Origin: Desulfuromonas sp. SDB
GTDB lineage: Bacteria; SDB-A
Reading direction: 5' to 3'
DNA length: 15,147 bases
NCBI GenBank assembly: GCA_001412365.1
Contig: LKUE01000246.1
Coordinates: forward strand, 1 to 15,147
The notes below the pieces were generated by a model. That model did not search any database. It saw nothing but the letters and a program-made list of their open reading frames with translations, and was not told the DNA's origin. A program made the translations under genes and the position numbers. This document shows positions 8,807-15,147 of the stretch, piece by piece. Each line of letters begins with the position of its first letter. The first letter of the stretch is position 1.

Positions 8807-10501
8807 ATGATTTACCCCAGAGTATTATCTCTTTTTGTACCCCTCCTCATTTTTAACTCATACCTGTTGTCAAATACATTTCAATCATCTCATAATTATA
8901 TCAATTCTCCTGCCAGAACTTCAGATACCACTTTAATTTCCTCCCAAGCTAACTGGAGAGGACTCTTGCAGCCGGGAAGGAATGTAATGGTAAAAGGGGA
9001 TACAGTATCGGTAGTATTTTCCCAGACCACCTCCGATTATTATAATTTCCAGATAATGTATCAGGCTTATTCAACCGATGCAGGAAATTCCTGGGTTTTA
9101 GCCCAACTAGGTACCGCTAATTCCATGAGAACCTATCCCCATCAAGCCCAGATGTGGGATGATGTGAACAGCACATTTCCCTATTCCGCCACCAGTTATG
9201 TATTCTGGCTGCAGAGATATTATCCTTCATTAAATGGTCAAACCTATTTTGCCCTTGATCAGAATATCCCCAATCAGATTTTCACCCCGGTACAGATTTC
9301 CCAGGCTATAACCTATTTACCCACCGGAGTAGTGTGGAAAGATGGGCACTGTTTCTGCACCGGCACTGATGCCACTACCGATGATATTTACGGTTTCTGC
9401 TCTTCTGATTACGGAGTAACCTGGGATTCTTCGGTGATCATCCCCATTGATTCTGGCGGAGCACAGATTGCTCCTATCTGCGACCGGGGCAGAAACGGCT
9501 ATGTTTTTATGTATTACGGCAGAAAATCCGAAACAGGCAATCCAATATTTAATTACTACCGTGAATCCACCGATTACGGACAGACCTGGAGTGATCCCCA
9601 CAAGATGATGATAAAAGCTTTAGGAGACAGTTTGGGATACTCAGATACTCTATCCTTAAGATGGTCAGGTTATTCTCTAATAATAGACTACTCTGAACGA
9701 AAACCCTATGCCCTGGCTACCTTGTGGTCAAATGCATTCACAACATTATTGTACGGAGAAATCTACTTTATAAAACCATCCGGGGGTTATCCGGGTAATT
9801 GGATTTTTGATTCATTGAATCCAACTCCGCTAGTGGTTGGAGATACAATGCAATTTGATCAAATTTCCCATTATCCTACTATCGGCTATTATTATGATAT
9901 GGATTCCAATATCATCCTTTATGCATTTTGCCTGGGTAAAGTAGATACAATCGGAACTGATATCTATGGATTGATGAGCTTGACTTCCACTGATGAAGGA
10001 AATACCTGGGATGTACAGTTTATATCTCCTTTCTTAAATGACAGTTTTACCTGGCATTTCCCCAGCGTTTCTTATTACCTGGGAAGCAATAATTCCGTAC
10101 ATTTAGTTTTAACCAAAGAAAGAGGCGAAAATGACTACGACAGTCTCCACCTCTATCATATCAGCTTTGATGTGGTCAACGATCTGGGACTGCCGCAACC
10201 CGGTCCCTATGTTGTGGGATTGGAAGAGCAGCCGGTCATTACAATTCCTACCGGCTATAATATAAATTTCATCCGGGACAGAAACAACTTTACATTTAAT
10301 CTTTCACTGCCCACAGGAGGAAACACCATTCTTAATATATATGATGCCAGCGGAAGAAAAATTAACCAGCTGGTTAACCGCTATCTTTCCGCCGGTCAGT
10401 ACAACTTCCGCTGGAATGAAACGGTTCCTGGGGGAAATTATATTTATCGTTTGACTTCAGGAGGATTTACTCATTCCGGCAAATTGCAGATTATTGAATA
10501 A
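8807..10501 (+). CDS. Secreted Asp-box (BNR) repeat protein with T9SS sorting domain, copy 1
   Basis: An exported 564-residue protein. A signal peptide (about 1-22) is followed by a long beta-rich region likely to be a sialidase-type propeller. It carries four Asp-box motifs: STDAGNSW, SSDYGVTW, STDYGQTW and STDEGNTW. The C-terminal 90 residues or so are a T9SS type A sorting domain ('LNIYDASGRKINQLV', 'GQYNFRWN', 'GGNYIYRL', final 'SGKLQIIE'). I do not see the FRIP arginine motif or a clear catalytic set of true sialidases, so enzymatic activity is not supported; glycan or surface binding is equally possible. AAGGAGG at 8794-8800, 6 bases before the ATG, fixes the start. A close paralogue follows after 21 bases, so the two form an operon under the promoter at 8757. 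Confidence 0.85.
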   Translation: MIYPRVLSLFVPLLIFNSYLLSNTFQSSHNYINSPARTSDTTLISSQANWRGLLQPGRNVMVKGDTVSVVFSQTTSDYYNFQIMYQAYSTDAGNSWVLAQLGTANSMRTYPHQAQMWDDVNSTFPYSATSYVFWLQRYYPSLNGQTYFALDQNIPNQIFTPVQISQAITYLPTGVVWKDGHCFCTGTDATTDDIYGFCSSDYGVTWDSSVIIPIDSGGAQIAPICDRGRNGYVFMYYGRKSETGNPIFNYYRESTDYGQTWSDPHKMMIKALGDSLGYSDTLSLRWSGYSLIIDYSERKPYALATLWSNAFTTLLYGEIYFIKPSGGYPGNWIFDSLNPTPLVVGDTMQFDQISHYPTIGYYYDMDSNIILYAFCLGKVDTIGTDIYGLMSLTSTDEGNTWDVQFISPFLNDSFTWHFPSVSYYLGSNNSVHLVLTKERGENDYDSLHLYHISFDVVNDLGLPQPGPYVVGLEEQPVITIPTGYNINFIRDRNNFTFNLSLPTGGNTILNIYDASGRKINQLVNRYLSAGQYNFRWNETVPGGNYIYRLTSGGFTHSGKLQIIE

Positions 10502-10510
10502 ATTAACTTC

Positions 10511-10517
10511 AAGGAGG
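10511..10517 (+). promoter_or_regulatory. Strong Shine-Dalgarno for the second Asp-box gene
   Basis: AAGGAGG lies 5 bases before the ATG at 10523 and 9 bases after the stop of the upstream paralogue. The first copy has the same seven bases with similar spacing. Both paralogues therefore appear set up for high translation from one transcript. Confidence 0.75.
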
Positions 10518-10522
10518 TATTA

Positions 10523-12226
10523 ATGAAATTCAACTTAGCAGTTGTATTGCTGTTTTTAGTCACTGGAACTGCTCTATGGGCAGATCAGGTATTATTTGAT
10601 CCTGAGGGGATCACTCCCATCCAAAATTATTCAGTATTGCCCAATAAAGCTACGGATACCGTGCTGATCACTCCCGATGCAAACTGGAGGGGAATTGTTC
10701 AGCCGGGAAGGAATATTATAGTAAAAGAGGATACGGTTTCAGTAGTATTTTCCCAAACCACCACCGATCCCAATGATTTCCAGATCATGTACCATGCTTA
10801 CTCCACCGATGGGGGGGCAAACTGGACTCCCGCCCAAGTGGGTACCGGCAACTGTATGAGAACTTATCCTCACCAGATGCAGATGTGGGATGAAAGTCCC
10901 TTTTCGGCAACTGCTTATGTCTACTGGATGGAGCGATATTATCCAGGAACGGTTGCTTCAACCTACTTCGCCTACGATGAACTCACCCCCTTCCAGTTAT
11001 TCACCCCGGTAGTGACCATCAATGCCATTGCTTATTTTGTCTCCGGTACGGTATGGGCGGACAGCCACTGCTTTGGAACCGGATATGACTGGAACAGTCA
11101 TGATATTTACGGTTTTACTTCTCCTGATCTGGGGAGTAATTGGGATTCAACGCTACTAATTCCCGCCGGTTCAGCCACCGGACAGGTTTCTCCTATGTGC
11201 GACCGGGGAGATGGCGGATATATCTTTCTGTACTACGGAAGACAGGAAGTTGCCAACAGCGCCATTGACAACCACTACATTGAATCCACCGATTACGGTC
11301 AAACCTGGTCTTCGCCCCATCAGATGATGATTGTGGATTATGTGGACACCCTGGGCAATGTGGATACCTTATCTCTAACCTGGCAAGGTTACAGCGTGAT
11401 TGTAGATTACCACACTAAAATCCCTTACGCACTGGCAAAACTAGATTATCATAAAGATCCAAACTACAGCTACAATTTCGGGGAAATATATTTCACCAAA
11501 CCCAACGGAGGCAGTCCGGGAGCCTGGACCTTTGATTCCGCAAATCCGGTGACAGTCATTGATAATGACCCCAATACCTTTGAGCATCTTGCCGGTTATC
11601 CCACTATTGGATATTATTACGATATTGATACAAATATTGTGCTATACGGATTCTGCCTGGCTTTTGTGGACACCCTGGGTTCAACTCCGGCAGCATTGAT
11701 GGGATTATCCTCCACTGATGAAGGCAATACCTGGGATGTTCAAATCGCTTCTCCCTTCTTAAGCGACAGTTTTAACTGGTACTTTCCCAGTGTTTCTTAT
11801 TATCTGGGCAGTAACAATTCCGTTCATGTAGTGTGCATAAAGGAAGGAACTCACAACGACACGGATCATTTAAATATGTACCATATAAGTTTAGACGTGG
11901 TTAACGACTTGGGCTTGCCTACTCCCGGACCTTATACTGTAGGAGTAGAAGAACAACCGGTTGATCCTGCACCCTCCGGATACCAGATTAACTACAGCAG
12001 AGAGGCAGATAACTTTATATTCAATCTTGCCCTGCCCACCGGTGGTATAACTACTCTAAAAATATATGATGCCAGCGGAAGAGAAATTAATCAGCTGGTG
12101 AATGGTTATCTTTCTGCAGGTAATTACAGTTTCAACTGGAACCAAACCGTGCCAGCGGGTAACTATCTGTATAAAATTACTTCAGGAGGATTTACCCATT
12201 CCGGTAAAATCCAGATTGTGCATTAA
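10523..12226 (+). CDS. Secreted Asp-box (BNR) repeat protein with T9SS sorting domain, copy 2
   Basis: A 567-residue paralogue of the preceding gene, alignable end to end with few small gaps and, by eye, well over half of residues identical. Signal peptide about 1-20, ending near 'TALWADQ'. The four Asp-box positions are kept: STDGGANW, SPDLGSNW, STDYGQTW and STDEGNTW; the first two differ from the copy 1 form and have lost the Thr/Ser before Trp. Conserved blocks include 'QPGRN', 'DTVSVVFSQTT', 'MRTYPHQ', 'YPTIGYYYD' and 'FPSVSYYLGSNNSVH'. The T9SS sorting domain occupies the last 90 residues ('GNYLYKITSGG', 'SGKIQIVH'). Many differences between the copies are synonymous, which suggests an old duplication kept by selection. 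No catalytic sialidase residues are evident. A perfect terminator follows the stop. Confidence 0.85.
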   Translation: MKFNLAVVLLFLVTGTALWADQVLFDPEGITPIQNYSVLPNKATDTVLITPDANWRGIVQPGRNIIVKEDTVSVVFSQTTTDPNDFQIMYHAYSTDGGANWTPAQVGTGNCMRTYPHQMQMWDESPFSATAYVYWMERYYPGTVASTYFAYDELTPFQLFTPVVTINAIAYFVSGTVWADSHCFGTGYDWNSHDIYGFTSPDLGSNWDSTLLIPAGSATGQVSPMCDRGDGGYIFLYYGRQEVANSAIDNHYIESTDYGQTWSSPHQMMIVDYVDTLGNVDTLSLTWQGYSVIVDYHTKIPYALAKLDYHKDPNYSYNFGEIYFTKPNGGSPGAWTFDSANPVTVIDNDPNTFEHLAGYPTIGYYYDIDTNIVLYGFCLAFVDTLGSTPAALMGLSSTDEGNTWDVQIASPFLSDSFNWYFPSVSYYLGSNNSVHVVCIKEGTHNDTDHLNMYHISLDVVNDLGLPTPGPYTVGVEEQPVDPAPSGYQINYSREADNFIFNLALPTGGITTLKIYDASGREINQLVNGYLSAGNYSFNWNQTVPAGNYLYKITSGGFTHSGKIQIVH

Positions 12227-12332: not shown

Positions 12333-13961
12333 ATGATCGGAATACTCATAGAAGCAAAGACCAAGTGTCCCTCCTGCAGCAGTATCATTCCCATAAATGC
12401 CCTGGTGTCAAAAATCACCTGTTCTGCCTGTGGAAAAATATGCAATTTCAATCTGGATGACTGGGAATCCATACTTGGAAATGCCCTGGAAGAAGTTCCC
12501 TATATGGAAGAACTGGAAGGTTCCAGCTCCACCATCTTCTCCGGAAACTACAACTACGAAATAGTTTACGGGCGCCAGCATCCCTCCTTCCGCGACGATA
12601 AGCAGAAGATTGACATCGACCAGGCGGTCAAGCAAATTTATCAGGGATGGATAGCCAATCCCCTTACCGGCAAGAAATTTTCAGTTAGAGCAGTTCCCCA
12701 AAAATACCAGTTGAAATTCCCGGGGATTAAGTATTTATTTTGCGAGCAATTTGAACTATTGCCCACTTCCCCACTAACTGAAGACCAGATTGAAACTAAG
12801 TCCAAAATTGAACCGGTATATTTCAACTGTCCGAAATGCGGAGGAGGTTTGGAAATTGACGGTTCCCAACGTCTGGTAAACTGCAGGTTCTGCCATGCTT
12901 CCGCCTATATTCCTGATGATCTGTGGCTCATCCTGCATCCGGTTAAAACCGTATCCCGTTGGTATATCTGGTTTGATCAGTACGACCGGGTATTCCGCTG
13001 GGAACAAGATCTGTGGGATGGGGTGGTTGATTCACAAAACAATCTTTATCTGGTTTGTGAATCATCTAACGGAAATTTCAAACTGGTCTGTTTAAACCAG
13101 GAATACAAGCCCACATGGATAAAAAATAAACTGGATTTCAAGACTCATACTACCCGGGGGGATATTAAACTCAGTCTGACTACTGATGAAAATCTAATCC
13201 TGCACAGTTATGACCAGGATCACCTGCTTTTAATTGACCGCAATGACGGATCAGTCATTTGTTCCATCCCCGATCTGGAGCAGCATCCTGAATTAAAATT
13301 CAAATACTGGGAATCAGTTGCCTGTGATATTGACGACAGTTTACTGGTTTACCTGAATCCTGAGAAAAAAGATGCTGAAGGATATTCATACTATGAGTTA
13401 TTGAGATTCGACCTGGACTTAAATCCCCTCCCCACCTGGCCCGACCAAAAATCAGAAAAACCTAAATGGTACAGCTGGATAACTGACCTGTTCAAAAGAA
13501 CTTGCGGAATTCCCTACTTCAGCGGAGTTAAAAACCGGTTCGAAAAACTTAAAGATTTTGAAATAAAAATTAACATCGGTTCAGATGGGAATTATTATTT
13601 CAGTTATTATAATTATTTACTTAAATACAACCGCTACGGTGAAAAAATTTATTATATGGAAATTCCCTGTAATTATCTGAGGGGAAAAGTAGTTGGGGAT
13701 TCAAACGGTTATGCTTACGCCTTGACCGGTCAATCTGATGACCGCAATACCCTGATCCGGATATCTCCGGACGGTCAACAGGCGGAGACCTATGTGGACA
13801 GCATTAAAGGGGGAGGGCTGATAGGAAAGGAAGAATTTGTATTGCTTTCTCCGTCCGGATATATTTTCCTGTTGGGTTATGGTGGCAGAATAAGAGTACT
13901 TTCACCGGATAAAAAACTTATTTTCATCAGTGAGAGATCAAAAAAAGATGAACAATCATAA
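12333..13961 (+). CDS. Zinc-ribbon/beta-propeller protein of unknown function
   Basis: A 542-residue cytosolic protein, with no signal peptide or membrane helix. N-terminal half: one zinc ribbon at C12/C15/C30/C33, then a region corresponding to the second ribbon of the protein at 1126-2229 but without its cysteines. A further ribbon follows at C166/C169/C184/C187, leading into YIPDDLW (192-198) and 'RWYIWF'. C-terminal half, from about 215 on: roughly six repeats of four short strands ('VDSQNNLYLV', 'TTDENLILHS', 'GSDGNYYFSY', 'GDSNGYAYAL', 'SPSGYIFLLG'), the look of an NHL/SMP-30-like six-bladed propeller. The ATG at 12333 is the only usual start after an in-frame stop at 12321; GGAG lies 12 bases upstream, rather far. 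It probably acts as a binding or scaffold protein; the partner is unknown. It stands alone after the terminator. Confidence 0.78.
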   Translation: MIGILIEAKTKCPSCSSIIPINALVSKITCSACGKICNFNLDDWESILGNALEEVPYMEELEGSSSTIFSGNYNYEIVYGRQHPSFRDDKQKIDIDQAVKQIYQGWIANPLTGKKFSVRAVPQKYQLKFPGIKYLFCEQFELLPTSPLTEDQIETKSKIEPVYFNCPKCGGGLEIDGSQRLVNCRFCHASAYIPDDLWLILHPVKTVSRWYIWFDQYDRVFRWEQDLWDGVVDSQNNLYLVCESSNGNFKLVCLNQEYKPTWIKNKLDFKTHTTRGDIKLSLTTDENLILHSYDQDHLLLIDRNDGSVICSIPDLEQHPELKFKYWESVACDIDDSLLVYLNPEKKDAEGYSYYELLRFDLDLNPLPTWPDQKSEKPKWYSWITDLFKRTCGIPYFSGVKNRFEKLKDFEIKINIGSDGNYYFSYYNYLLKYNRYGEKIYYMEIPCNYLRGKVVGDSNGYAYALTGQSDDRNTLIRISPDGQQAETYVDSIKGGGLIGKEEFVLLSPSGYIFLLGYGGRIRVLSPDKKLIFISERSKKDEQS

Positions 13962-14016: not shown

Positions 14017-14985
14017 ATGAACAAATACACCAAACCAGTTTTAGTAGCAAGCAAATGCCTGGGGTTTGACCACTGCCGCTACAACGGAGCTGTCATAAAT
14101 GATGATTATGTGGCAGCTTTAAAAAGTGAAGTTGATTTTATCACCGTATGTCCGGAAGTAGAAATTGGTCTGGGAGTTCCCCGTAATCCCATAAGAATCG
14201 CCAGGCAAAATAATAATAAAGTTCTCTATCAACCCGCTACCGGGAAATATTTCACTGACCAGATGAAAAATTTTTCCAGTAAATTTTTAAATTCTCTGGA
14301 TAAAGTGGACGGATTCATTTTAAAATTTAAATCGCCTTCTTGCGCGCTTTACGATGCAAAAATTTACAGTAGTATTGATCCCCAATCTATGGGGGAAAAG
14401 GGAAGCGGATTCTTCGGAGAAGCGGTTATTGAAAAATTTCCTCACCATCCCAAAATAGATGAAGGAAGACTTAAAAACTTCACCATCAGAGAAAATTTTT
14501 ATATTAACATCTTCTGCTTGGCGGAATTTAATAAAATCAGACTTTCCCCCCGGATAAATGATTTAGTAAACTTTCATACCAGAAACAAATTGCTGTTTCT
14601 GGCTAAAAATGAAAAAATTACCCGGATTATGGGTTCAATTGTAGCTAATCATCCTCAATATACGGCAGATGTAGTCTTTGAACTTTATCAAACTCACCTT
14701 TGGGAAATAATAAACTCTCTGCCTAAATTTAACCATTGGATTAACACCATGCTGCATGCCTTCGGAGGGATTTCTAAACATCTCAATGCCCAGGAAAGAA
14801 AATATTTTTTAGATGCAGTGGAAGAATACCGGGATGAAAGGATTCCTCTAAGTGTTCCCCTTTCTCTGCTGCAGTCATGGGCTATCCGGTTTAATTTAGA
14901 ATACCTTCTCCACCAGACATTTTTAAAACCATTTCCTTCTAAATTAGTTGAAATTTCAGATTCGGGTAAAGGTCGAAACCATTGA
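14017..14985 (+). CDS. DUF523 (TudS-like)-DUF1722 fusion protein
   Basis: A 322-residue cytosolic two-domain protein. DUF523, about residues 7-150: the cysteine pattern S-K-C14-L-G-F, R-Y-N-G, C45-P-E with 'GLGVPRNP', and S-P-S-C109. DUF523 includes TudS, a thiouracil desulfidase in which three such cysteines hold a [4Fe-4S] cluster; C14, C45 and C109 match those positions, while C20 is extra. DUF1722 (YbgA-like), about 190-310: helical, with 'HTRNKLLFLAKNEK' and 'LLQSWAIRF'. Fusions of the two domains are common, and E. coli ybgA (DUF1722) lies next to the photolyase gene phr. Here the downstream gene is UvsE, with the stop TGA overlapping its TTG start. A role in handling damaged or thiolated nucleobases is inference. 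The ATG at 14017 lacks a good Shine-Dalgarno. Confidence 0.88.
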   Translation: MNKYTKPVLVASKCLGFDHCRYNGAVINDDYVAALKSEVDFITVCPEVEIGLGVPRNPIRIARQNNNKVLYQPATGKYFTDQMKNFSSKFLNSLDKVDGFILKFKSPSCALYDAKIYSSIDPQSMGEKGSGFFGEAVIEKFPHHPKIDEGRLKNFTIRENFYINIFCLAEFNKIRLSPRINDLVNFHTRNKLLFLAKNEKITRIMGSIVANHPQYTADVVFELYQTHLWEIINSLPKFNHWINTMLHAFGGISKHLNAQERKYFLDAVEEYRDERIPLSVPLSLLQSWAIRFNLEYLLHQTFLKPFPSKLVEISDSGKGRNH

Positions 14986-15147
14986 AAATTGGTTACCCCT
15001 GCATTAACCGATCAATCGGCTGTACGGCTAATTCCACCTTCCGGTTGAAAAACTACTCCCGGCAGAATGTGATCAATAAACTGGAGAATAATTTAAATTG
15101 CCTGTCTGAAATACTTAAGTTTAATCTAAAAAACGATTTGATGTTTT
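14982..15147 (+). CDS. uvsE: UV damage endonuclease UvsE/UVDE, N-terminal fragment (cut by the window edge)
   Basis: An open frame of 55 codons runs from a TTG at 14982 to the window end without a stop. Its opening M-K-I-G-Y-P-C-I-N, then 'NSTFRLKNYS', 'NLNCLSEILKFN' is the N-terminus typical of UvsE/UVDE. This TIM-barrel, metal-dependent endonuclease nicks DNA 5' of UV photoproducts and begins a light-independent repair path. The metal-binding residues lie beyond the window. The TTG shares its last two bases with the TGA stop of the DUF523-DUF1722 gene (TTGA overlap), and AAAGG lies 9 bases upstream, so translational coupling is likely. No ATG is available nearer than residue 54. The family call rests on a short but characteristic stretch. 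Confidence 0.8.
   Translation, partial: MKIGYPCINRSIGCTANSTFRLKNYSRQNVINKLENNLNCLSEILKFNLKNDLMF

Follow-up and report, generated by a model that had tools for sequence, protein, structure and literature searches.

A predicted tRNA 4-thiouridine desulfidase gene, rudS, overlaps the UV damage endonuclease gene uvsE in a probable light/UV stress unit

The stretch of DNA analysed here (the window, 15,147 bp, which is the entire contig C246) carries a rudS gene, encoding a TudS-DUF1722 fusion protein, whose stop codon overlaps the predicted start of uvsE, the gene for a UV damage endonuclease. The two genes probably form a translationally coupled light/UV stress unit, and our best reading is that UvsE takes the position in which photolyase is generally described. 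Similar overlapping pairs were found in methane-producing archaea and in a second bacterial phylum, and the trees are most simply explained if the pair came together more than once.

In 2024, TudS-DUF1722 proteins received the name RudS; they take 4-thiouridine (s4U) off intact tRNA by means of a [4Fe-4S] cluster, while the DUF1722 domain helps to bind the tRNA (PMC11417400). Overexpression of RudS in E. coli eases the UVA growth delay, and the Thermus thermophilus enzyme (RudS_TT) lowered tRNA s4U 8.7-fold when produced in this host; stand-alone YbgA, the DUF1722 protein of E. coli, had no s4U activity (PMC11417400). Light-responsive rudS operons with photolyase and carotenoid genes have been reported, as have groups with RudS and no ThiI (PMC11417400). 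The main text of that paper mentions neither uvsE, nor endonuclease, nor TspO, and we found no paper combining "UV damage endonuclease" and "DUF523" in the literature searched. The biochemical role of TudS-DUF1722 proteins is thus already known; uvsE as their partner appears to be new.

Results

Overlap of rudS with uvsE

The source assembly (G000) is fragmented and of metagenome type (3.14 Mb in 433 contigs). In the window, rudS (322 aa) occupies positions 14017-14985 of the plus strand and starts with ATG. Its TGA stop (14983-14985) and the TTG start of the next gene (14982-14984) share the 4 bp TTGA (14982-14985, plus strand), as the sequence-only reading had noticed for what it called a DUF523-DUF1722 gene. 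A Shine-Dalgarno-like TAAAGG (14967-14972, plus strand) sits 9 nt before the TTG, in the part of rudS that encodes the DSGKGR tail, and is a plausible ribosome site for uvsE. The TTG start is credible because homologues begin with MKIGYP, or a close variant of it, at the same place. No promoter-like or light-regulator signal was seen beside the pair.

The frame that opens with this TTG stays open up to the end of the window, which thus holds the first 55 codons of uvsE (14982-15147, plus strand). These 55 residues alone gave no Pfam or NCBIfam match. The sole UvdE (PF03851) match of the genome lies on the minus strand of contig C70 and reaches the contig end (206 bits, profile positions 57-262). 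The final 17 bases of the window are exactly the first 17 of reversed C70, and the reading frame carries on across them (...NDLMFFRISSDLVPFASHP...); from this overlap and the shared frame we inferred that C246 and C70 join. The remainder of the gene would then be C70 (L002 2103-1366, minus strand), and the product would be 296 aa long. The joined protein keeps the motifs FASHP, SMHPDQ, QIHVGG, VIENDDR, VFDNLHH, SHAQ and LEIKDKE, with conserved His, Glu and Asp residues that we take to be metal ligands. It matched the UV damage endonuclease 3tc3 over its length (1.1e-80) and the Thermus UVDE 2j6v (3e-45). The earlier identification of the downstream frame as UvsE, made on its beginning, is thereby borne out: across the putative join, the gene downstream of rudS is a complete uvsE.

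Other genes of the window were also looked at. Positions 8807-12226 encode two paralogues in tandem, of 564 and 567 aa. Both look secreted and contain weak BNR-like repeats, and their C-terminal ends, similar to each other, resemble sorting domains. The proteins encoded at 1126-2229 and 12333-13961 have a common zinc-ribbon region (CPKCGG and YIPDDLW motifs); the latter had no Pfam match.

Recurrence of the pair in other genomes

Searching GTDB genomes by means of a RudS alignment yielded 30 loci, in five of which uvsE was directly downstream of rudS on the same strand. Four of these are from Methanotrichaceae, which are archaea (L036, L037, L038 and L040), and the fifth is from Auribacter fodinae (L029); the Auribacter phylum contributed two more pairs (L090 and L091). 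The junction is ATGA in all of them, the TTGA of the window being the exception. Because homologous pairs from at least two further lineages overlap in the same way, the overlap in the window goes beyond chance. In A. fodinae, the pair is followed, with another overlap, by a class II photolyase gene. A second, divergent RudS-like gene (L029:4949-5887) was seen directly upstream of this rudS-uvsE-photolyase unit.

Among 44 genomes of the Auribacter phylum, a full rudS was present in eight and uvsE in exactly the same eight, the two being adjacent in three; a ninth genome had a rudS fragment only. The Fisher probability of this co-occurrence was 5e-8 (one rudS fragment counted, uncorrected for kinship). 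In 294 Halobacteriota genomes, DUF1722 was found in 69, UvdE in 53, and both in 24 (8e-5 by the same test, again uncorrected for kinship), with rudS adjacent to uvsE in only one of these 24. In some Halobacteriota genomes (L078, L061 and L068), uvsE is accompanied by another, divergent UvsE-like gene. The 30 DUF1722 loci of Spirochaetota had no uvsE neighbour and one photolyase neighbour, and none of 27 viral RudS loci had either. All four genomes examined from the phylum of the window contain both genes, which are linked solely in the window genome; in the three relatives, they are on separate contigs with other neighbours.

The sequence-only reading had proposed that DUF1722 genes adjoin UV repair genes beyond chance, as ybgA adjoins phr in E. 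coli. This held in part: TudS-DUF1722 genes were enriched beside uvsE or photolyase genes, but the linkage is far from universal. Our census spans few phyla, with Bacillota, Pseudomonadota and Bacteroidota outside the sample, and its probabilities ignore kinship; within it, rudS-uvsE linkage is favoured in some lineages and not obligatory.

Phylogeny of RudS and UvsE

The tree of 56 RudS proteins rejected a single clade of the uvsE-linked members (AU p 6.6e-6) and requires no fewer than four changes of linkage. A sister relationship between the window rudS and the rudS of its phylum relatives was also rejected (AU p 4e-5); the window gene was therefore probably acquired separately, from elsewhere. 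For UvsE, the rejection of a single clade of linked proteins was weaker (p 0.013), and a group of the window uvsE with that of its relatives was compatible with the data (p 0.22). Paired UvsE proteins are thus probably not one clade either.

These trees bear on the possibility that the two genes are neutral neighbours, joined by chance or by shared horizontal transfer, their overlap being ordinary compaction with no functional coupling. The probable foreign origin of the window rudS, next to a uvsE that the trees allow to group with that of the relatives, fits such a history, and so does the fact that most genomes having both genes leave them unlinked. However, the same gene order, on one strand and with a 4-bp overlap, came about in several lineages with non-sister rudS genes. 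Furthermore, random gene order would give about 0.0002 such pairs per genome, against the three of eight Auribacter-phylum genomes found (a rough figure, which ignores kinship). We consider neutral neighbourhood unlikely, and favour a functional unit.

Function of RudS

The window RudS matched 2-thiour_desulf (PF04463), the TudS catalytic domain, at residues 11-146 (E 1.7e-31; positions 14047-14454, plus strand) and DUF1722 (PF08349) at residues 191-307 (E 6.8e-33; 14587-14937, plus strand), both far above the curated cut-offs. The second domain corresponds to the tRNA-binding part of RudS (PMC11417400). Alignment with RudS_TT (TTHB112) gave 42% identity across 99% of the length, and the predicted [4Fe-4S] cysteines C14, C45 and C109 aligned with Cys16, 47 and 111 of that enzyme. 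In the numbering of RudS_KT (PMC11417400), these cysteines correspond to C17, C49 and C114, and the catalytic residues E47, R56, S106 and S108 to E51, R60, S111 and S113, equivalences that come from motifs and from the alignment to RudS_TT, the RudS_KT sequence itself not being aligned. By homology, the window protein would remove s4U from tRNA.

The C-terminal (I/V)xDSGKGR tail (14947-14982 in the window; also in L029, L090 and others) is common in RudS and lies outside the DUF1722 model. Another RudS subclass ends with LRNHA/V. We considered the DSGKGR tail as a dual-coded ribosome site specific to uvsE-linked rudS, and discarded this idea, the tail being common in unlinked RudS.

The window genome yielded no canonical ThiI, so s4U is no more than a presumed modification in this organism. 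A PP-loop protein carrying an NFACT-R_2 domain (PF02568, 41 bits) came out best, as the only ThiI-like candidate, besides MnmA-type matches, in these rudS-carrying genomes. Genes for such PP-loop ATPases, with NFACT-R_2 at the C terminus, are at L012:1501-2403 (G000, contig C56) and L013:1501-2457 (G003). It is a guess that this protein may be an alternative s4U synthetase.

The lack of a canonical ThiI could also mean that the window protein has drifted to the salvage of free thio-nucleotides, like TudS, its link with uvsE then reflecting nucleotide recycling after damage. The window protein shares its TudS domain with the 4-thio-UMP desulfidases (PMC10611767), and the residues S243 and R244, with which RudS_KT contacts the anticodon arm, have no evident counterpart in the window protein (compared without the KT sequence). 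The active RudS_TT, however, also seems devoid of these contacts by the same comparison, and yet it de-modifies tRNA and does not support thiouracil salvage (PMC11417400). With the DUF1722 domain intact as well, drift to salvage is very improbable.

Just as improbable is the proposal of the sequence-only reading that DUF1722, with its DUF523 domain, acts with UvsE in DNA or RNA repair by mending or clearing UV-altered or thiolated bases: recurrent linkage to UvsE and photolyase would fit it, but the assayed activity of RudS is removal of intact, photosensitive s4U from tRNA, to which DUF1722 binds (PMC11417400), and nothing points to an action on crosslinked s4U or on DNA. Since RudS is a tRNA s4U desulfidase, and since the window protein keeps all the residues for this reaction and is 42% identical to the Thermus enzyme, it is not expected to repair UV-altered bases.

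Discussion

We propose that rudS and uvsE act together as follows. RudS would use its [4Fe-4S] cluster to strip the sulfur from 4-thiouridine at position 8 of tRNA, eliminating the near-UV chromophore whose crosslinking to C13 otherwise stalls translation. UvsE, by analogy with its homologues, would nick DNA next to UV photoproducts and so initiate light-independent excision repair. Made at once, the two proteins would allow translation to go on during DNA repair. Co-translation of the pair, and its induction by light or UV, are expected from this scheme.

In the window genome, a class II photolyase-like gene (L150, contig C250) is split between two frames and looks interrupted by a frameshift, either an assembly error or a pseudogene, and no photolyase match was found in the relatives G001-G003. 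Direct UV repair in this group may therefore depend chiefly on UvsE, nucleotide excision repair being outside this comparison.

Other pairwise unions were observed. rudS adjoins a class II photolyase gene in L039, and uvsE does so in L134. A TspO-like gene directly precedes rudS in L022, L024 and Thermus, and a TspO/MBR-like gene directly follows uvsE in the window-phylum relatives G003 (L007:6706-7182) and G002 (L011:844-1320). TspO and class II photolyase were named by eye and sequence similarity in unannotated loci, and TspO by annotation in Thermus. These unions of rudS, uvsE, class II photolyase and TspO support a common light/UV theme.

With rudS-uvsE, the role proposed for RudS reaches beyond photolyase operons: the partner here is an unrelated enzyme of UV repair, and archaea have the pair too. 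That this overlap formed repeatedly is comparative evidence, apart from overexpression phenotypes, for a part of natural RudS in the UV response. More tentatively, and with rather less confidence than in the unit of the window itself, we suggest that rudS-uvsE could be a dedicated, repeatedly evolved UV-response module in mostly anaerobic bacteria and in methanogens, one that ties the removal of s4U from tRNA to DNA repair independent of light. Protection of tRNA against light could then regularly accompany UV repair, no matter which repair enzyme is employed.

Comparison with known systems places the window pair as follows. The window protein has the same domain order as the known RudS proteins (RudS_KT PP_0741, RudS_TT TTHB112 and RudS_ST STM1389), and shares with them the three cluster cysteines, the catalytic Glu, Arg and Ser and the tRNA-contact RYN motif. 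It differs from them in coming from a little-studied candidate phylum (one relative is labelled WOR-3), in a genome with no canonical ThiI, and in having uvsE as neighbour. UvsE resembles UVDE of known structure (PDB 3tc3 and 2j6v) in its full length and metal-ligand motifs, whereas its gene has a TTG start inside the rudS stop and is split over two contigs. In ybgA-phr of E. coli, a DUF1722 gene also stands beside a UV repair gene. It does so too in the phr-litR-rudS operons of Pseudomonas, and light control has been proposed (PMC11417400); the repair enzyme is photolyase in both and UvsE here, and YbgA has no TudS domain, unlike the window protein. The CarH/LdrP light island on pTT27 of T. 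thermophilus gathers rudS, uvsE, phr, a tspO-type gene and carotenoid genes in one region. In strain HB27, rudS shares an overlap with the tspO-type gene. Here rudS and uvsE stand on either side of the carH-phr-crt island, and carH, ldrP, phr and carotenoid genes lie in the interval. The two genes are about 14 kb apart there, whereas in the window they form one joined unit.
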